Assembly (NCBI GenBank): GCA_021824065.1 | Contig: JAKALU010000010.1 | Location: 1 to 36,822, forward strand | DNA length: 36,822 nucleotides | Reading direction: 5' to 3' | Source of the DNA: Nitrospirota bacterium | Lineage (GTDB): Bacteria; Nitrospirota; Thermodesulfovibrionia; Thermodesulfovibrionales; UBA1546 | Position numbers and translations under genes: made by a program | The notes under the pieces: generated by a model | Databases searched by the model: none | What the model was told of the DNA's origin: nothing | The model's input: the letters and a program-made list of their open reading frames with translations, nothing else | In this document: in pieces, positions 17,149 through 26,123 of the stretch | Layout: each line of letters starts with the position of its first letter | Position numbering within the stretch: the first letter of the stretch is position 1

Positions 17149-17694
17149 TTAGTTTGCAGCAATGCCTTTCAAGCCATCCCGGATATCTTCTCTTATAGCC
17201 ACAATTACATCCGGAGAATTCAATGGTATATCTCCGAGTTCTGACCTGATTTCTCTTGTGTCTATGGAATAAGTATTGCTGTTCCGTCTATGTTCATAAA
17301 GGAAATCGATCTCAGGATTACCAGCAATCAACACAATTAATGTATCAGTAATATTTCCCAATGGCTTTCTGTCAATATGGCTGTGTTTAAAATAGGCATG
17401 GACTACTGTCCCTACACCTTTCTCTGACGTAATAGAGATATCTCCTTCAGCCTCTCTTGCCGACTGGGCAAGCAAAGACAATCCAAGGCCAACCCTCCTT
17501 GTCTTTCGGGTGGTATAAAATGGATCCATAACCTTTTTCAATGTATCAGGGTCTATCCCTTTGCCATTGTCTTTTATTTCTATGGAAAAGATATCCTTTT
17601 TCATGTCCTCAATGATTATTATCTCGATCCTTCTTGCCCCAGCAGCAATAGAGTTTTCTACGATGTCAAGTATATGCAATGAAAGTTCTTCCAT
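17149..17694 (-). CDS. HATPase-domain protein (anti-sigma/histidine-kinase-like ATPase)
   Basis: A 181-residue protein with a GHKL ATP-binding domain: N-box HILDIVENSIAAGA, G1 box IKDNGKGIDPD, F-box DPFYTT and G2 box GLGLSLLAQSA. There is no phosphoacceptor His domain, so it is a kinase-type ATPase alone, followed by a C-terminal region of about 80 residues of unknown role. I choose the ATG at 17694 (MEELSLHILD), 1 nt after the PHP stop (TGAAATG), over an upstream TTG that would overlap that gene by 29 nt. It is last in the NuoEFG-like operon. Similar proteins sit beside [FeFe]-hydrogenase HydABC genes in Thermotoga and clostridia. Confidence 0.82.
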   Translation of the reverse strand: MEELSLHILDIVENSIAAGARRIEIIIIEDMKKDIFSIEIKDNGKGIDPDTLKKVMDPFYTTRKTRRVGLGLSLLAQSAREAEGDISITSEKGVGTVVHAYFKHSHIDRKPLGNITDTLIVLIAGNPEIDFLYEHRRNSNTYSIDTREIRSELGDIPLNSPDVIVAIREDIRDGLKGIAAN

Positions 17695-17695
17695 T

Positions 17696-18436
17696 TCAAT
17701 ATATAACCTTTCTTCCTTCAACACCTTTTAAAGCAAGACAAAGTTCCTCAAATGTCGAATGTTCCATAAAAAGACCTGTTGAAACCCTTCCTACATCATC
17801 AAGTTTATGTGCATCGGATGACGTAATCCACGGGATATGGCTGTATTCCCTGAATCTTTTTTTTGCCTCACCTATAGATGTGTTGTAAGAGATTTCGAGG
17901 GCATCCAGTTTCAAGTCAGGCGGGATAAAGCCGAGTTGCCCTATAATCCCGAATCCTTCCCTGTCAATATGAGCTGCAATTGCGAGACCGCCAAAATAAT
18001 GTATGACCTCTACTATTCTGCTAACCGAAAGACGAGTTGATCCTATTAACAGCCTTTTGTTAAAACCGAGAACTTCGTCTTCTTCATTTACAACAACCTG
18101 CATACCAAATACCTCTTCGTCATTTTCTTCGGGCTGGAGATTCTCATAAACTATATCCTGCATCTTCAGGGCATCAGCTATATTGCCAAAAAGACCAAGG
18201 ATATGAACTTCTTCAGAAGAAGTTATCTCGATGCCGGTAATCGCATTTATTCCCTTTTCTTTAGCCAGTCTTTTTGCAACCTCTGCATTCTCTACAGAGT
18301 TGTGGTCGCATATCGCAATTATATTCAGACCCAGAGATGATGCCTTCTCTGCAATTCGTAATGGAGTCATTAATAAGTCAGCACACGGCGAGAGGCAGGT
18401 ATGTATATGGAGGTCTGCCCTGAACTCTACTGGCAT
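17696..18436 (-). CDS. PHP-domain metal-dependent phosphoesterase
   Basis: A 246-residue PHP-family protein with the metal-binding motifs DLHIHTCLSPCAD (about 8-20), ICDHNSVENAE (HN motif), IAAHIDREGFG and ITSSDAHKLDD. The ordered His/Asp residues for a trinuclear metal site are present, so it is probably an active phosphoesterase; the substrate is unknown. It overlaps the DRTGG-like gene upstream by 10 nt and is followed after 1 nt by the HATPase gene. Homologues accompany HydABC-type operons and have been thought to act in signalling or cofactor handling; no direct evidence here. Confidence 0.87.
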   Translation of the reverse strand: MPVEFRADLHIHTCLSPCADLLMTPLRIAEKASSLGLNIIAICDHNSVENAEVAKRLAKEKGINAITGIEITSSEEVHILGLFGNIADALKMQDIVYENLQPEENDEEVFGMQVVVNEEDEVLGFNKRLLIGSTRLSVSRIVEVIHYFGGLAIAAHIDREGFGIIGQLGFIPPDLKLDALEISYNTSIGEAKKRFREYSHIPWITSSDAHKLDDVGRVSTGLFMEHSTFEELCLALKGVEGRKVIY

Positions 18437-18768
18437 CTCAGGCCGAGGCTGTAAAGTCTGCCTACAAGCTCAAAAGCTGGCAGAGGACTCACCATGATTG
18501 GCAAACCTTCCTCTTCAGCCTTTTTCAAAGTCTCTGTGTCAGGGGTTCTATTATTCACAAGTATAATGCCTGATAGTTCTCTTAGAGTTGCAACAGCAAC
18601 AATGTTTTGATGGGTCTGAAGGGTTACCCATATATTGCCCTCTTTGCTGTTTGCTATAACATCGGAAAGGAGGTCGCTTACATAGCCGCCGGTCACCTCT
18701 TTTGTTAAATTAAAAGATGCTGTTTTGACCTCGAGGGATAAGCTATCAACAAGTTCCTGGAGTTTCAT
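18427..18768 (-). CDS. DRTGG-like domain protein, copy 1
   Basis: A 113-residue protein resembling the stand-alone DRTGG domain found next to hydrogenase and NADH-dehydrogenase-like genes. Recognisable parts are VTGGYVSDLLSDVIAN, WVTLQTHQNIVAVATL, GIILVNNRTPDTETL and a C-terminal LPIMVSPLPAFELVGRLY. The family is thought to bind a small ligand or nucleotide, but its function is not established. It overlaps the PHP gene by 10 nt and lies 3 nt after an HATPase gene. A second copy occurs at 19205-19555. Confidence 0.78.
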   Translation of the reverse strand: MKLQELVDSLSLEVKTASFNLTKEVTGGYVSDLLSDVIANSKEGNIWVTLQTHQNIVAVATLRELSGIILVNNRTPDTETLKKAEEEGLPIMVSPLPAFELVGRLYSLGLRCQ

Positions 18769-18771
18769 GTG

Positions 18772-19215
18772 TTACTCTCTTTTTATCTTTATAATAAACT
18801 CTAAAGTGGTTCCTGCACCGGGAGTTGAGGAAAGCTTCATCTCGTCTGCATTCTTCTTGATGTTTGGTAACCCCATGCCTGAGCCAAAACCCATTTCCCT
18901 TATATAATGAGGGGCTGTTGAGTAACCTTCTGTCATGGCGAGAGCGATGTCTTCGATGCCAGGCCCCATATCTTCCACTACAATCTTGAGGTAGTCAGGT
19001 GTGATCGAATACCGCATCATGCCTGCAGGGGTATATATTATTACATTCATCTCTGCCTCGAAGGCGGCTATGGCTGCCCTCCTTATAATGCCGTGATTAA
19101 TACCCATCTTTTCGAGTATAGCCTTAAGTTCACTGGAGGCAACACCTGCATTAGAAAAGTCCTTACCCGTCAGGAAAAAGACGCCTTCAGCGGTTTTTTC
19201 ACATTTATTCTGCAT
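18772..19215 (-). CDS. RsbW-like HATPase protein (anti-sigma type)
   Basis: A 147-residue ATP-binding domain of the SpoIIAB/RsbW type: DFSNAGVASSELKAILEKMG, the N-box AAIAAFEAEMNVIIY, the G1 box VVEDMGPGIEDIA and the G2 box GFGSGMGLPNIKKNADEM. No other domain is present. The start at 19215 (MQNKCEK) keeps the domain intact and overlaps the DRTGG-like gene by 11 nt; upstream ATGs would extend it far into that gene. There is no good ribosome binding site, so coupling to the preceding gene is likely. In related operons it pairs with DRTGG proteins beside NuoE/F-like subunits. Confidence 0.82.
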   Translation of the reverse strand: MQNKCEKTAEGVFFLTGKDFSNAGVASSELKAILEKMGINHGIIRRAAIAAFEAEMNVIIYTPAGMMRYSITPDYLKIVVEDMGPGIEDIALAMTEGYSTAPHYIREMGFGSGMGLPNIKKNADEMKLSSTPGAGTTLEFIIKIKRE

Positions 19216-19555
19216 CAGGACAACTTCGCAATCCCTTCTCATATAATCTGCCACAGGCATCAAACATAGAAAGGTTTGTAATAAGAACGGGAATTTTCTT
19301 TTCTTCTGAAAGAGCCACCGTTTCTCTATCAGGCCGTTTGCCTTGTACAAAGACAATCATCTTTATATTAGCGAACTCTGCGGTGCGTATGACCTGGGCA
19401 TTGGTTAGCGCTGTTATAAGCAAGGATTCAGGTTCACAGAATGCCAGGACATCACTCATAAGGTCCGCACTATAGACCCTCTCAATATGCATATTAGTAT
19501 CACACTTTGTAAGTACATTTGCCCGAAGTATGTCTTTAATTTCATTTAACGTCAT
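19205..19555 (-). CDS. DRTGG-like domain protein, copy 2
   Basis: A 116-residue paralogue of the protein at 18427-18768, sharing the layout VYSADLMSDVLAF, ESLLITALTNAQVIRTAEF, IVFVQGKRPDRETV, IPVLITNLSMFDACGRLYEKGL. I use the ATG at 19555 (MTLNEIKDIL), 1 nt after the NuoG-like stop with GGATAAG before it; an upstream in-frame start would overlap that gene. The two copies are separated by the RsbW-like gene, giving DRTGG-HATPase-DRTGG-PHP-HATPase, as if the module had been duplicated. Confidence 0.78.
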   Translation of the reverse strand: MTLNEIKDILRANVLTKCDTNMHIERVYSADLMSDVLAFCEPESLLITALTNAQVIRTAEFANIKMIVFVQGKRPDRETVALSEEKKIPVLITNLSMFDACGRLYEKGLRSCPDAE

Positions 19556-19556
19556 C

Positions 19557-22028
19557 TTATCCTTTTGCTGACTCAACCCTCACTGCGTCTATGGAGATTC
19601 CACCGTTGGCTGAATAGTGAGTCAGTGCATTAACACGTCCGTGAGGGAAATGCACCGGGACATACACAGTGCCAACCGGAATCGTATCAGTCACCTTTGC
19701 CTTAAGATAAACAGTCCCACGTTTTGATGTTACCTTAACATGACTGTTATCTAAAATGCCGAGCTTTTTAGCATCCTCATCATTTATACCAAGCAAGCCC
19801 TCAGAAACAACGACGTCAAGCGATTTAGACCTTGTTGACATGCTCCCGGAATGTTGTAGTATATCCCTTGTAACCATGGCCATCGGATAGTCTGTATCCG
19901 GCTCTTCACCATAGGAATAGTGAACAGGATTGAAACAAGGCCGAGAGTTGGAGCTTGGGGGTTGAAGGCCGGGCAATGACTTTATCTCTTCCGAGATGCC
20001 ATCGAGACCTCTGGTACCAATGTCTTTTCCCATTGCCCAGGACAGGTTCCTGATAATCAACCAGTCAGGAAGGGACTGACCCGTTGAGTCTACCACCTTA
20101 TGCAGTCGCTGTGTAATTCCTTCGGCATTGGTGAATGTCCCGTCTTTTTCTGCCCAGCTTGAAGCAGGCAGGACCACATGGGCTAATTTCGCTGTCTCTG
20201 TAAATGCAATGTCCTGCACAATCAGAAGGTCTAATGATTTTAATCCTCTGATAATCTTTGAATTATGAGGGAATGTCACAACCGGATCTTCTCCCATGAT
20301 ATAAAGAGCCCTGAGAGAACCTGGATTATACAGCATCTCTAAAATATCTTTTCCAGAGGGCATTTCCATAGCCGGCCTTGCACTTGCCTGATAAATTCCA
20401 AAGGTGTTAGAGTATTCAGCCGGTATCTGGAGCGAATCGGGGCTGTCGCCCATTAAGGTAATCAGATTTGCAGCAGCTAAAACCGTATCTAATCCCTTTG
20501 TATTTTCGGAAATACCGATTGAAAGGGACAGCATCCTGCTCTTAGCCTTTGCAAATATCTCTGCAACAGATACAAGCCCTTCCGCTGCAATCCCTGTAAT
20601 CTTAGAAACCTTATCAGGTGTGTAATCTTTTAATGCTGATTCAAGTGATGAGAAACCTGAAACCTTTGAAGCCTTTTCTCTATCAAAAAGACCTTTGTCT
20701 ATTATAATCTTCATCATTCCGTTCAGAAGTGCTATTGCAGTACCCTGTTTTATCCCGAGCCACTGTGAACTGTGTCTTGTTAGTTTTGTCTCTTTGCTGT
20801 CAGCAACGATAAGGTTGGAACCTTTTCTTTTTGCCTCCAGAATACTCAATCCAAAAACAGGATGCGTTATGCTTAAATCAGACTCGAGGATAAAAATTAC
20901 CTCTTTGTCGAGAGGGGATTTAAGATTTATACGATGGCCTTTTTGATTAAAGGCCTTCTCCCACGCCTTCTCTACAAGGGCGTAACCAAAGGCAGCAGAT
21001 GAATCAATGTTATTCGAGCCGATAACATTTCTCATAAATTTCTGCAGCATGTAGTTATCTTCGTTTGTGCATCTATGCGAACCTATTGCCCCTATAAAAG
21101 AGGCGCCGTGCGACGCTGTGATAAATTTCAGTCCGTCACTGATATAGTTCAGCACCTCATCCCATGATGCCGGCACAAGCTCGCCATTTTTTCTTATCAT
21201 CGGTGTTTTTAGACGATTCTCGCTGTAAATATAATCAAAGCCGAATCTGCCCCTTCCGCAAAGGTTGCCATCGCTTACCCCGTTGTCTTCCTTACCTCTG
21301 GATCTCAGTATCTTCCCTTCCCTCAGACCTAATGTGAGGGTACAGCCGCAGCCGCAGAATGGACATATCGTGTCCTTTTCTTCGAGGAACCAGGCACGCG
21401 CCTGAAACTTGGATGGTTTACTCAAGAGCGCACCAGTAGGACATATGTCTATGCACTGCCCGCAATAATCGCACTTAAGGATTTCGCCAAATGCAGGCTG
21501 AACTACTGTTGAGAATCCTCTCCCTATAAATCCGAGCGCTCCTCTTCCCTGATGCTCAGCACAAATTCGCACACATTTCCCGCAGAGAATGCACCTGTTT
21601 GCAGTCAGCTCTATCAGAGGGCCCCTGACATCAGGCAGGGCTTCTTTCCTGTGCCTTATAAATCGCCCCTCTGGCTTTCCATATTCGTATGCTACATCCT
21701 GAAGGTCACACTCCCCGGCCTTGTCGCATATCGGGCAGTCCAATGGATGGTGGATCAACAGCAGTTCAAGGACAGTCTGGCGGGCCTTCCTGAGTTTTGG
21801 CGTATCCGTTTTTATAATCATTCCAGATGCTACAGGTGTTGAACATGAAGCTAAAAGTCTCGGCTGACCTTCTGCTTCGACAACACACAACCTGCAACCC
21901 CCATAGGGTCTGAGCCTTTTGTCATAACAGAGATTCGGTATTTTAATCCCGTTCATCTGGGCAGCCTTAAGAATTGTAGTACCGTCCTCAACCGAGATTT
22001 TTTTGCCGTCTATTGTCAGTTCTACCAT
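19557..22028 (-). CDS. nuoG: NuoG/FdhA-like iron-sulfur subunit with an empty molybdopterin domain
   Basis: An 823-residue protein. The N-terminus has a [2Fe-2S] site (Cys34, 45, 48, 62), a His-Cys3 cluster (His94, Cys98, 101, 107), two [4Fe-4S] sites (Cys146, 149, 152, 156 and 186, 189, 192, 196) and the N7-type site (Cys222, 225, 229, 257). A full molybdopterin-oxidoreductase-type fold follows, including a C-terminal MopB domain. At the position of the metal-ligand Cys/Sec of formate dehydrogenases the sequence is IDSSAAFGYALV (Gly348), so it should not oxidise formate. It probably conducts electrons from NuoF. The ATG directly abuts the NuoF-like stop. It takes the place that HydA has in hydrogenase operons. 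Confidence 0.88.
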   Translation of the reverse strand: MVELTIDGKKISVEDGTTILKAAQMNGIKIPNLCYDKRLRPYGGCRLCVVEAEGQPRLLASCSTPVASGMIIKTDTPKLRKARQTVLELLLIHHPLDCPICDKAGECDLQDVAYEYGKPEGRFIRHRKEALPDVRGPLIELTANRCILCGKCVRICAEHQGRGALGFIGRGFSTVVQPAFGEILKCDYCGQCIDICPTGALLSKPSKFQARAWFLEEKDTICPFCGCGCTLTLGLREGKILRSRGKEDNGVSDGNLCGRGRFGFDYIYSENRLKTPMIRKNGELVPASWDEVLNYISDGLKFITASHGASFIGAIGSHRCTNEDNYMLQKFMRNVIGSNNIDSSAAFGYALVEKAWEKAFNQKGHRINLKSPLDKEVIFILESDLSITHPVFGLSILEAKRKGSNLIVADSKETKLTRHSSQWLGIKQGTAIALLNGMMKIIIDKGLFDREKASKVSGFSSLESALKDYTPDKVSKITGIAAEGLVSVAEIFAKAKSRMLSLSIGISENTKGLDTVLAAANLITLMGDSPDSLQIPAEYSNTFGIYQASARPAMEMPSGKDILEMLYNPGSLRALYIMGEDPVVTFPHNSKIIRGLKSLDLLIVQDIAFTETAKLAHVVLPASSWAEKDGTFTNAEGITQRLHKVVDSTGQSLPDWLIIRNLSWAMGKDIGTRGLDGISEEIKSLPGLQPPSSNSRPCFNPVHYSYGEEPDTDYPMAMVTRDILQHSGSMSTRSKSLDVVVSEGLLGINDEDAKKLGILDNSHVKVTSKRGTVYLKAKVTDTIPVGTVYVPVHFPHGRVNALTHYSANGGISIDAVRVESAKG

Positions 22029-23900
22029 TTAAGCTTCCCCCTTTGTTGTTTCACCTTCTGTTGCTGTTACCTCGACTAATTCGGATGGACCGCTTTCATA
22101 GCCAGCAGGCAGTATTCTTATGGATTTGAATTTGCACGTCTCATAGCAGGTTCTGCAATGTACACATAGTTCCTGGATAATCTTATGTGGTTTTTTCTTC
22201 TCTCCGACTATGGCTTTTGACGGGCATGCCCTTAAACAGGCACCGCAGCCTTTGCAGAGTTTTTCATCTATCCAGAATGTAACAAGGTTGCGGCATACAC
22301 CTGCCTTGCACCATTTGTCTTTTATATGTGATTCGTATTCTTCCCTGAAATATTTTATTGTTGTAAGTACCGGATTAGGAGCTGTCTGCCCCAGACCGCA
22401 CAATGATGTAGTAATTATATCTCTGCCGAGATCCTGCAGTGTCTCTATATCGCCTTCTTTCCCCCTGCCTTCTGTAATGTCAGTAAGGATATCGAGAAGT
22501 ATTTTTGTCCCCACCCTGCATGGTGTGCACTTCCCGCAGGATTCATCTGCTGTAAACTCAAGGAAGAATTTAGCTGTGCCCACCATACATGTATTGTCAT
22601 CCATGACAACCATTCCGCCTGATCCGACAATCGCACCGGTCGCAACAATATCCTCGTAAGTCACAGGCGTATCAAGAAGACTTTCAGGGATACACCCTCC
22701 TGACGGCCCGCCGAGCTGAACTGACTTATATTTTCTGCCCTTCCTTATCCCACCGCCGATATCGTATATAATTGTCCTTAAAGGGATGCCCATAGGAACC
22801 TCAACCAATCCCACATTGTTGACAGCGCCTGTGAGAGCGAACACCTTGGTGCCGGTGCTCTTTTCAGTGCCCAGGCTTCTATACCATTCTGAACCATTAA
22901 TGATAATGGGAGCTATCTGCGCTAAGGTTTCGACATTGTTCAGCACTGACGGCTTATCCCATAAACCTTTATGTGCAGGGAATGGAGGCCTTGGTCGGGG
23001 CATTCCGCGTTTGCCCTCTATAGAACGCATCAATGCAGTCTCTTCACCGCACACAAAGGCGCCGGCTCCCTGATATATCTCAAGTTCGAAATCAAATCCG
23101 GTATCCAGGATATTTTTACCGAGGAGCCCTGCCTCTGTAGCCTGATCAATTGCTATCTGGAGGCGTTTAACAGCCAGCGGGTACTCAGCCCTGACATAAA
23201 TATAACCGTGATGTGCTCCTATTGCTTTTGCGCCTATAATCATACCCTCAATAACTGAATGCGGGTCGGCCTCCATAACAGACCTGTCCATGAAAGCGCC
23301 GGGGTCACCCTCATCGCCATTGCACAGCATAAATTTGACATCGGATTTGACCTTTGATGCAAATTCCCATTTCAATCCTGTGGGAAAACCTGCACCGCCT
23401 CTTCCCCTCAGTCCCGAGTCTTTTACAACCTTTATTATTTCCTCAACGGTCATCTGTGTAAGCGCCTTTGCAGCTGCCTGATAACCATCTCTGGCAATAT
23501 ATTCTTCGATCTTTTCAGGGTCAATAAGCCCTTTATTCCTCAAAACCCTCAAGACCTGATGCTTGAAAAAGGGGATATCCTTCATCATAGGGATGGCGGT
23601 CTTCTTCTCAGGCTCTTTAAACATCAATTTCTGGTAAGGCCTGCCTTTCAGAAAATGTTCTTCAACTAATTTGGGGATATCCTCGACCGTTAACTTCTGA
23701 TAAAAGACTTCATCGGGATAAACCGCCATGACCGGTCCCTCGGCACAATAGCCATTGCAACCAGTCAGGACTATCTTTATCTCTTCATCGAGATCCCTCT
23801 TTCTTAACTCCTCCTGGAGAGCTTTCTTCACCTTCATGGTTCCGCTGGCAACACAACCTGTTCCTGCGCATAGCATTAAGTTCGCACGAAACTTTTCCAT
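22029..23900 (-). CDS. nuoF: NuoF/HydB-like NADH-binding flavin subunit
   Basis: A 623-residue subunit that oxidises NADH (or NADPH) through FMN. Order: a thioredoxin-like [2Fe-2S] domain (Cys11, 16, 48, 52); the FMN/NADH core with GLRGRGGAGFPTG (163-175), NGDEGDPGAF and GAGAFVCGEETAL; a [4Fe-4S] site SCGKCTPCRVGT; and two C-terminal ferredoxin sites (CKGCGACLRACP and CVHCRTCYETCK). The N- and C-terminal additions are those of HydB/HndC-type subunits of soluble complexes rather than of the respiratory complex I NuoF. A strong AGGAGG precedes the ATG. Bifurcation is possible but cannot be shown from sequence. Confidence 0.92.
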   Translation of the reverse strand: MEKFRANLMLCAGTGCVASGTMKVKKALQEELRKRDLDEEIKIVLTGCNGYCAEGPVMAVYPDEVFYQKLTVEDIPKLVEEHFLKGRPYQKLMFKEPEKKTAIPMMKDIPFFKHQVLRVLRNKGLIDPEKIEEYIARDGYQAAAKALTQMTVEEIIKVVKDSGLRGRGGAGFPTGLKWEFASKVKSDVKFMLCNGDEGDPGAFMDRSVMEADPHSVIEGMIIGAKAIGAHHGYIYVRAEYPLAVKRLQIAIDQATEAGLLGKNILDTGFDFELEIYQGAGAFVCGEETALMRSIEGKRGMPRPRPPFPAHKGLWDKPSVLNNVETLAQIAPIIINGSEWYRSLGTEKSTGTKVFALTGAVNNVGLVEVPMGIPLRTIIYDIGGGIRKGRKYKSVQLGGPSGGCIPESLLDTPVTYEDIVATGAIVGSGGMVVMDDNTCMVGTAKFFLEFTADESCGKCTPCRVGTKILLDILTDITEGRGKEGDIETLQDLGRDIITTSLCGLGQTAPNPVLTTIKYFREEYESHIKDKWCKAGVCRNLVTFWIDEKLCKGCGACLRACPSKAIVGEKKKPHKIIQELCVHCRTCYETCKFKSIRILPAGYESGPSELVEVTATEGETTKGEA

Positions 23901-23947: not shown

Positions 23948-24331
23948 TTAGTATGTCGTCTCACTGCCTACTACCAAAGCATATTTTTCTACAGGGTTTC
24001 CGCCAAGCACATGTTCTTTGAATATCTCTCTGATCTTTTCATCGTTCAGATCGCAATACTTAACCGGCGGCTTGTTCATTATCTCTACGGTCGCCAATGG
24101 TTCACGCGCACATAGCCCTGCACAGCCAGAGGTTGTAACTATAACATCGTTTACATTTGATTTAGTTATTTCATCCATCAGGGCAGTCATAACGTTCCTT
24201 GCACCTGCAGCTATTCCGCATGTTCCCATATGGACAGTGACCTTCGCCCTGTACCCGCCCTCTCTCAAGGTAAAATCTGCTTTATGTTTTTCTTTAATCT
24301 TCCGAAGATCATCTATGGTTAATCTCGGCAT
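23948..24331 (-). CDS. Thioredoxin-like [2Fe-2S] ferredoxin, HndB-like
   Basis: A 127-residue protein with a thioredoxin-like ferredoxin fold: VHMGTCGIAAGARNV and VTTSGCAGLCAREP carry the cysteines. The first motif has one Cys where canonical members have two, as also seen in HndB-type subunits of NADP-reducing hydrogenases. It starts 1 nt after the receiver-NuoE fusion with a strong GGAGGGG site, and lies 47 nt before the NuoF-like gene. It is probably a small electron-carrying subunit of the same complex. Confidence 0.85.
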   Translation of the reverse strand: MPRLTIDDLRKIKEKHKADFTLREGGYRAKVTVHMGTCGIAAGARNVMTALMDEITKSNVNDVIVTTSGCAGLCAREPLATVEIMNKPPVKYCDLNDEKIREIFKEHVLGGNPVEKYALVVGSETTY

Positions 24332-24332
24332 C

Positions 24333-25265
24333 TTACCCCTCCTTCTCCGCTATTTCTTCTTCTATTTCTTCTGAGGCTGTTGATTTTAAAATTGTCGGCT
24401 CGTACTGACTGATAACATCTAATGCCTTTTTTTGAGTCATGGCGCCATATGTTTCCTGGTCAATAACCATGACAGGCGCAAGCCCACAGGCTCCAAGGCA
24501 TCGAACGCCCTCAAGTGAAAACTTTCTGTTTTCTGTGGTCTCTCCAATGTCTATCTTTAATGCCTCTCTTATTTTACTCAGGACTCCTTCAATCCCTTTT
24601 ACATAACAGGCAGTGCCGAGACATACCCTGATATTATGGTCGCCCCTCGGTTTCATGGTGAAGAAAGAATAAAAAGAGACAACACTGTGCACTTCTGCTG
24701 TCGGTATATTTAATCCTTTGGAAATTCTTTTTTGAACTATAGGCGGAAGATACCCTACAATTTCCTGTGCACGCTGGAGCACTGGTATCAGACAGCCAGG
24801 TTTGTTTTTATATTCCTTGATAATCCTGTCCAGTTCATTGAGCATAGAAGGCGGGAACTCTTCTTTAGGCTTCTCTTCAACATAAACTTTCCCCTTTACC
24901 CATTCTAATGCCCTCTGAGTTACATCTACCAGCGCCGCAGGCGTAAAAGGTTTAGGCACGTAATCGATGATGCCGAGTTCCAGTGCCTCTTTGATCGTGT
25001 CTTGAGATGGATAACCTGTAATAATCACAATCCCGATATCCGGCTTTGATTTTTTCATCCATCTTATCAAAGTGATTCCGTCAACCTCTGGCATCTTGAG
25101 GTCTGTCAGGACAAGGTTGTAGTTGTTCTGTTCCATCTTGAGTATTGCCTCTCTTCCACTTAAAGCCCCTTCGACATGATACCCCTCTGCACTAAGAACC
25201 CTTTCGGCACTTTTTATTACAATTATTTCGTCGTCCACAACAAGAATCTTAGCGGCTTCTGCCAT
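24333..25265 (-). CDS. nuoE: Response-regulator receiver domain fused to NuoE [2Fe-2S] subunit
   Basis: A 310-residue fusion. Residues 5-125 are a complete receiver domain: acidic pocket Asp11/Asp12, phosphoacceptor Asp55 (LVLTDLKMP), Thr83 (IITGYPS) and Lys105 (PKPF). Residues about 140-290 are a full NuoE: VGYLPPIVQKRISKGLNIP, VVSFYSFF and the four [2Fe-2S] cysteines Cys215, 220, 256 and 260 (CLGTAC, CLGAC). Translation starts at 25265 with AGGGGG upstream, and nothing suggests a frameshift join. The NuoE part should pass electrons from the NuoF-like flavin; phosphorylation of the receiver could gate assembly or activity. The cognate kinase is not evident. Confidence 0.92.
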   Translation of the reverse strand: MAEAAKILVVDDEIIVIKSAERVLSAEGYHVEGALSGREAILKMEQNNYNLVLTDLKMPEVDGITLIRWMKKSKPDIGIVIITGYPSQDTIKEALELGIIDYVPKPFTPAALVDVTQRALEWVKGKVYVEEKPKEEFPPSMLNELDRIIKEYKNKPGCLIPVLQRAQEIVGYLPPIVQKRISKGLNIPTAEVHSVVSFYSFFTMKPRGDHNIRVCLGTACYVKGIEGVLSKIREALKIDIGETTENRKFSLEGVRCLGACGLAPVMVIDQETYGAMTQKKALDVISQYEPTILKSTASEEIEEEIAEKEG

Positions 25266-25285
25266 ATACTACCCCCTCACAAAAA

Positions 25286-25348
25286 TTTCAAATCTCAAAT
25301 CTCAAATTTCAAATCTCAACAACTTTTAACTCTTAACTTTTAACTTTA
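25286..25348. repeat. Heptanucleotide tandem repeat array
   Basis: Nine consecutive 7-mers fill 63 bp of the 90-nt gap between the two receiver-domain genes. Five are TYTCAAA-type (25286-25320: TTTCAAA, TCTCAAA, TCTCAAA, TTTCAAA, TCTCAAC) and four are AACTYTT-type (25321-25348: AACTTTT, AACTCTT, AACTTTT, AACTTTA). The array lies within the transcribed region of the operon. Confidence 0.8.
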
Positions 25349-25355
25349 CACTTAT

Positions 25356-26123
25356 TTAAACCGTTATTGGTTGAATCCTCGCTAACCACAGGAGCCAGCC
25401 CTCGCTCAAGTTGTCACGTATGAGGGCGCTCATAGCTGTATTAGCATTAATGTTAATCTCTTTGACCTTCCCGGTCATTGGCGAAATAAGGTCCTCGGTC
25501 TGGCCTGAACCCGATAAGATTTTGCCGAAGGATTCTCCTGCTGCAATTATATTTATTCCCTCAGGAATATCGATATACATGAGCTGGCCGCTCAACAGCC
25601 AGTATCTTATGTCACAACCAATCTCCCAGAGCCCATCCCTGATCGGCCTTGCCCATGTGCCCTCTTTATAAAAGATGACGGGATTCTCCGTATCTCTGAG
25701 TGATACGATATCATTCCTGAATTCATCAATAAATGCCTTCCTTAAAATCCAGCCTCTCTGATCAAATATCTTGTTAGCAACGTTTATCATAAAATCTGGA
25801 GTGAAAGGCTTCTCGATATATTCAAATGCTCCAAGTCTTACAGATTCTTTGGCATCTTCTAAGGTCGGATATCCTGTAATTATGACTACATCAAGCTTGG
25901 GCTGAATTATTTTGGATTCTTTTAATACGATAATGCCGTTCACATCAGGGAGCCTTATATCAGAGATGAGGAGGTCAAACTCTTCATTAGAAACTTTCTT
26001 TATTGCATCTTCGCCCTTATCAGTGGTTATGATATTGTAACCTTCAGCACCGAGAATTCTTTTACAACTGAGAGTTACAACAGGGTCGTCGTCTAATACT
26101 AAAATCTTTCCCTTTTTTTCCAT
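25356..26123 (-). CDS. Response-regulator receiver domain fused to GcvH-like domain
   Basis: A 255-residue protein, first gene of the operon. The receiver domain (5-125) has Asp11/Asp12, Asp55 (LLISDIRLP), Thr83 and Lys105, at the same residue numbers as the receiver-NuoE fusion, so the two are probably duplicates. Residues about 150-250 resemble the glycine-cleavage H-protein/lipoyl fold (YIDIPEGINIIAAGESFGKI, then LISPMTGKVKEIN and EGWLLWLARI). The lipoylated Lys loop (ESVK in GcvH) is ILSGSGQTED and has no Lys, so it is probably not lipoylated. GGAGG lies before the ATG. No DNA-binding domain is present. Confidence 0.85.
   Translation of the reverse strand: MEKKGKILVLDDDPVVTLSCKRILGAEGYNIITTDKGEDAIKKVSNEEFDLLISDIRLPDVNGIIVLKESKIIQPKLDVVIITGYPTLEDAKESVRLGAFEYIEKPFTPDFMINVANKIFDQRGWILRKAFIDEFRNDIVSLRDTENPVIFYKEGTWARPIRDGLWEIGCDIRYWLLSGQLMYIDIPEGINIIAAGESFGKILSGSGQTEDLISPMTGKVKEININANTAMSALIRDNLSEGWLLWLARIQPITV

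Follow-up and report, generated by a model that had tools for sequence, protein, structure and literature searches.

A receiver domain fused to the BfuC-type subunit of a Bfu-like NADH/ferredoxin enzyme in Nitrospirota

A gene encoding a receiver domain joined to a NuoE-type [2Fe-2S] domain (REC-NuoE) was found in a stretch of 36,822 nucleotides from a Nitrospirota bacterium (GenBank contig JAKALU010000010.1; hereafter the window), and comparisons of domains, structures and trees identify its product as the BfuC/HydC/StnA-type subunit of a Bfu-like (HydABC/Stn) NADH/ferredoxin enzyme. We consider it slightly favoured that a membrane histidine kinase phosphorylates the fused receiver and thereby sets the gate movement or the assembly of this complex. 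As a rule, receivers act on DNA-binding or second-messenger domains. Receivers with non-DNA-binding outputs, whether enzymes or protein-binding domains, combine receiver and effector in one chain; unlike in these others, the effector in REC-NuoE is an electron-transfer subunit. To our knowledge, the regulation of bifurcating enzymes is largely open. If our reading is right, the fusion would place a bifurcating enzyme under a post-translational phospho-switch, and these bacteria may use phosphorylation as a direct switch for an energy-conserving enzyme.

The original prediction, a receiver fused to a complete NuoE-type domain in a single frame, was borne out. REC-NuoE is one uninterrupted reading frame without internal stops, and both of its Pfam domains are complete (Table 1), the PF01257 match being near full length (profile positions 2-144 of 145). 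The receiver active-site residues D11, D12, D55, T83 and K105 and the [2Fe-2S] ligand cysteines C215, C220, C256 and C260 are all present at the positions that had been named. The protein consists of the receiver (residues 7-115), a hinge (about 118-146), the helical domain of NuoE (about 139-203) and the thioredoxin domain (about 210-288), with a linker of about 28 aa between the receiver and the NuoE domain. In the AlphaFold2 model the receiver was confident and the NuoE domain moderately confident, whereas residues 126-133 of the hinge had a pLDDT <50 and the placement of the receiver against the NuoE domain was undefined (pTM 0.45). Between REC-GcvH and REC-NuoE, window positions 25283-25347 hold 7-bp tandem repeats (AAATCTC x5 and AACTTTT x4).

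Table 1. Coordinates of the REC-NuoE gene, its domains, neighbouring genes and paralogs (window positions unless a locus is given)
Feature	Position	Strand	Remarks
REC-NuoE (BfuC-type) fusion	24333..25265	minus	310 aa; ATG start; Pfam, conservation, AlphaFold
Receiver domain	24921..25247	minus	residues 7-115; PF00072 (Response_reg), E 1.6e-27
NuoE/[2Fe-2S] thioredoxin-like domain	24402..24830	minus	residues 146-288; PF01257 (2Fe-2S_thioredx), E 7.9e-49
HndB-like small [2Fe-2S] thioredoxin-like protein	23948..24331	minus	127 aa; weak NCBIfam ferredoxin match
NuoF/HydB (BfuB)-type FMN subunit	22029..23900	minus	623 aa; N-terminal [2Fe-2S] + C-terminal 2x[4Fe-4S]
NuoG/FdhA-like (BfuA-type) subunit	19557..22028	minus	823 aa; FDH-like
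REC + GcvH-like protein	25356..26123	minus	255 aa; second receiver protein, upstream of REC-NuoE
DRTGG-domain protein	19205..19576	minus	domain search, synteny
SpoIIAB-like HATPase	18772..19215	minus	start reassigned to internal ATG
DRTGG-like protein	18427..18768	minus	under Pfam cut-off
PHP-domain protein	17696..18436	minus	domain search
HATPase_c protein without DHp/HisKA	17149..17724	minus	C-terminal extension; domain search
Receiver + helical-half NuoE paralogs	L105 7204-8154, L106 7418-8206, L107 6404-7219, L108 6936-7694, L109 7300-8061		

Conservation of the fusion extends across a large set of Nitrospirota, most of them uncultured. By a tabulated count, the full fusion occurs in about 110 of 396 Nitrospirota genomes, all of the same class as the window, and the other classes among these genomes gave receiver-only or NuoE-only matches. 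A scan of GTDB species genomes allowed 77 of the best 80 relatives to be read end to end as fusions. That a chimeric assembly or a frameshift had joined two adjacent genes is vanishingly improbable and was rejected: a two-component gene, REC-GcvH, does adjoin REC-NuoE, and no other support for an artefact was found, whereas the same fusion with a linker of 24-39 aa (27-29 in most) recurs in 105 sequences of independent assemblies, three of which are single-contig chromosomes (CP070644, CP070737 and CP070632). A sequencing or assembly join is thus excluded, and the gene is real, as had been supposed. All nine residues (D11, D12, D55, T83, K105 and the four cysteines) are invariant in the window protein and the 77 orthologs, well beyond what chance would give. 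Among the 105 fusions read, 102 keep both D55 and K105; in these 102, invariance is confined to 10 of 120 receiver columns, including D11, D12, D55 and K105, and two carry T83 replaced by Ala (L131 and L132), with the kinase present in both genomes. A plasmid search gave no obvious fusion among the matches listed. The NuoE tree is a polytomy at the fusions, with the REC-less NuoE of family f25 branching among them, and fits one gain with later loss and several gains alike. The arrangement had also been called uncommon, which holds for the open-access literature searched, where no description of a receiver-NuoE fusion or of a receiver with an electron-transfer-subunit output was found, but not within Thermodesulfovibrionia-type Nitrospirota, where the fusion is common.

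The NuoE label itself had to be narrowed: the NuoE-type [2Fe-2S] domain is complete, but the protein is not the NuoE of complex I, and its partner genes are of the Bfu/HydABC/Stn type. In the NuoE tree, the complex I copies, including the window genome's own copy on contig C152, form a separate clade; on this ground and that of the HydB-type NuoF partner, assignment to complex I was rejected, and no nuoA-D or nuoH-N genes were recognised within the window. The NuoE part matches PF01257 and nuoE_fam, in line with the NuoE-like nature of BfuC, and has NiFe-HydC and HydC as its closest PDB chains, and Foldseek and phmmer matched it to HydC, NfnC and Stn chains. The NuoF subunit aligns end to end with NiFe-HydB (7t2r; 839 bits) and contains PF01512, PF10589 and Fer4 of the BfuB definition, with SLBB at the expected place slightly under the cut-off (23.7 vs 27). 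The cysteines of its additional clusters, [2Fe-2S] at the N-terminus and 2x[4Fe-4S] at the C-terminus, are conserved, and nearly all orthologs retain the cofactor cysteines of both NuoF and NuoE. In the NuoG-like subunit, the Fer2_4, NADH-G_4Fe-4S_3 and Fer4_Nqo3 domains of the BfuA definition were found. Its best full-length PDB matches are formate dehydrogenase (FDH) alpha chains; the FDH catalytic Cys/Sec is replaced by Gly in 91/91 orthologs and the adjacent His by Tyr in 85/91, and a formate dehydrogenase was rejected since both catalytic positions are lost. This FDH domain is consistently dead, yet keeps its [4Fe-4S] cysteines. The combination of a HydB/BfuB-type NuoF with a dead FDH-like NuoG points to a Bfu/HydABC/Stn-type complex. 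The HndB-like gene starts 1 nt past the REC-NuoE stop, and C38, C70 and C74 of its product are invariant in 92 sequences. A GltD-type NADPH/FAD module was absent from the window proteins scanned and had no ortholog in the genome.

This correction matters because the NuoE-type subunit is the proposed mobile gate in such complexes. For StnABC and HydABC, a swinging movement has been proposed that carries its C-terminal thioredoxin domain between the FMN and ferredoxin sides; in StnABC, bifurcation is abolished when the StnA thioredoxin-domain cluster is deleted (PMC10482914). The receiver is therefore joined to the very subunit that is proposed to control bifurcation by moving.

The order REC-GcvH, REC-NuoE, HndB-like, NuoF and NuoG is kept in nearly all of 80 loci, REC-GcvH lying almost always directly 5′ of REC-NuoE. 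The receiver site of REC-GcvH is intact in 79/79 orthologs, and its lipoyl-lysine position is not Lys. Across loci, the DRTGG-HATPase-DRTGG-PHP-HATPase block (window 17149-19576) is located 3′ or 5′ of the enzyme genes. A tandem NuoF-NuoG duplication stands behind a single REC-NuoE in L045, L047, L050 and L057. A separate HndB-like gene was not found in L022, L027, L028, L033, L053 and L072, where the NuoF N-terminus is unusual, with its first two cysteines replaced and the ORF longer in most; these are possibly HndB-NuoF fusions. A promoter scan 5′ of REC-GcvH gave matches at chance level.

At the head of the cluster in several relatives (L011, L026, L067 and L115) stand a membrane histidine kinase and, with it, a single REC, an NtrC-type regulator or both. 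Two transmembrane segments are predicted in the kinase, which also contains HAMP, HisKA and HATPase domains. Within the first 260 residues of 47 long kinases, CxxCH precedes HAMP in 43/47 and CxxxxCH in 45/47; these motifs in the periplasmic part suggest c-type haem, and the kinase is possibly a di-haem redox sensor. Both motifs are conserved in the kinases L118:786-2369 (G000:C127) and L011:5499-7085. The window genome encodes an ortholog, 80% identical to the cluster kinase of the relatives, on another contig (C127), where it is followed by a single REC and then by an NtrC gene cut by the contig end. We infer that it is the cognate kinase of the REC-NuoE receiver, which, judged by its residues, looks competent for phosphorylation.

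The fate of the receiver was compared with that of the kinase. Three fusions have degenerate receivers, in genomes G174 (D55N, T83V), G172 (D11C, D12S, D55H, K105S) and G144 (D12N, D55Y, K105A). When 80 genomes were searched at E<=1e-70, a line chosen after the fact, the kinase was present in 64/64 of the other fusion genomes, absent in G172, G144 and G174, and absent in 12/13 fusion-less genomes. The receivers of 21 of the 64 kinase-positive fusion genomes were read directly, and D55 and K105 were intact in 21/21; the remaining ones were presumed intact from the ortholog alignment. A strict pairing of dead receivers with a missing kinase was weakened at looser thresholds, at which the best matches in G172 and G174, two of the three genomes, were shortened, fast-evolving kinases inside the kinase clade (branch lengths 1.5 and 1.61, the longest in the clade; median 0.1), while G144 had none. 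In addition, G160 has an intact receiver although its kinase is short and fairly divergent (branch 0.95). The results, from three genomes in two independent lineages, are suggestive of a receiver whose acceptor Asp disappears only in genomes in which the kinase has been lost or has decayed. Such co-erosion is the pattern expected if the acceptor site is kept only while the kinase works. In these lineages NuoE persists alongside a dead receiver, which indicates that the fused receiver can outlive phosphorylation.

Our preferred reading, kinase control of the complex through the fused receiver, can be laid out as follows. REC-NuoE, the HndB-like protein, the NuoF/BfuB subunit and the dead FDH-like NuoG/BfuA subunit would form a soluble, Bfu-like NADH/ferredoxin oxidoreductase whose BfuC-type subunit has apparently gained an N-terminal phosphoacceptor domain. 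The membrane kinase, with HAMP, HisKA, HATPase and a periplasmic loop bearing the two haem-c-type motifs, would phosphorylate D55, as well as the sibling receivers in REC-GcvH, the single REC and the NtrC-type regulator. Through the hinge of near-constant length, the phosphorylated receiver would repack against the complex and change how the NuoE [2Fe-2S] domain moves or docks; this domain is the gate proposed to swing between the FMN and ferredoxin sites. As to the direction of the effect, the enzyme may be turned on or off, or shifted between NAD(H) and ferredoxin. The stronger claim, that this is direct two-component control of electron bifurcation in which a haem-c-motif membrane kinase acts through a gate-subunit receiver on the NAD(H)/ferredoxin split within seconds, is tentative, and we rate it at somewhat less than even.

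The main rival to this reading runs the signal in reverse, with the NuoEFG-like complex as a redox sensor or scaffold that presents its receiver and REC-GcvH to the kinase; the phosphate supply to the NtrC-type regulator would then be set by the NADH/ferredoxin state, through a phosphate sink or redox-gated dephosphorylation. Kinase, single REC and NtrC are indeed genes of the same clusters, and parts of the complex look non-catalytic, given an FDH-like subunit without catalytic residues in all 91 orthologs and a GcvH-like domain without its lipoyl lysine. Also in keeping with it, paralogs L105-L109 have lost the [2Fe-2S] cluster while their receiver and NuoE helical domain remain, and genome G004 keeps the kinase and REC-GcvH with the fusion absent. 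However, the near-universal conservation of the NuoF and NuoE cofactor cysteines is what a working oxidoreductase would be expected to show, and the FdhF domain of StnC is equally inactive in the bifurcating StnABC (PMC10482914). We regard reverse signalling as unlikely.

Less probable again is a purely structural receiver that serves dimerisation or docking to a membrane or partner and goes unphosphorylated in normal life. In three sequences (L112, L113 and L114), the fold region of the receiver persists although the active site is broken, and the T83 substitutions in L131 and L132 would be in line with such a role. This would leave the retention of D55 and K105 in 102/105 fusions and the invariance of D11, D12, D55 and K105 to be accounted for, and the degenerate receivers coincide with kinase loss or erosion.

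Among known systems, the Bfu family comprises electron-bifurcating BfuABC enzymes such as HydABC and NiFe-HydABCSL (Schut et al., 2022; PMC9304861). The window complex resembles them in having a NuoE-type C subunit, a NuoF-type B subunit with an N-terminal [2Fe-2S] and C-terminal 2x[4Fe-4S], and a NuoG-type A subunit. It differs by the receiver on the C subunit, the extra HndB-like protein and the dead FDH-like domain in A; no third-substrate module was recognised in the window complex, and bifurcation, and with it any third substrate, is presumed here from the genes. With StnABC, an Nfn-type Bfu transhydrogenase (PMC10482914; PDB 8oh5, 9bov), it shares an StnAB-like core and a NuoG-type subunit with an inactive FdhF domain, whereas the GltD NADPH module is missing from its NuoG, operon and genome, and its StnA-like subunit carries a receiver. 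NAD-dependent formate dehydrogenases (FdsABG, FdhAB) are similar in overall subunit types and in the full-length match of NuoG to the FDH alpha chain, but the window NuoG is without their catalytic Cys/Sec and His. The closest precedent for the regulation is Rv3143/MSMEG_2064 of Mycobacterium, an orphan response regulator with NuoD as its binding partner and a modulating effect on complex I (PMC9274095), in that a CheY-like receiver is tied by protein contact to an NADH dehydrogenase-type complex. In contrast to this free actinobacterial protein with NuoD of complex I as its target, the window receiver is covalently part of a NuoE-like, Bfu-type subunit. Whether D55 phosphorylation alters the electron split thereby becomes a directly testable question.

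Natural variants offer ready controls, namely a dead receiver with an intact NuoE and an intact receiver with a cluster-less NuoE. In paralogs L105-L109, the thioredoxin part with all four cysteines is lost, and D55 is replaced by Glu in L107 and L108. Intact NuoF and NuoG genes adjoin these paralogs, as does a GltD-like gene in L106. By the published StnABC mechanism, complexes containing them should not be expected to bifurcate. At L064:7310-8182, the cluster's SpoIIAB-like HATPase carries a near-identical copy of the REC-NuoE receiver, which marks the receiver as a module that moves between components of one pathway. The related cluster of family f25 has a NuoE that lacks the REC (52-56% identical) and is not accompanied by such a kinase; CBS domains are joined to its SpoIIAB-like HATPase (L101).
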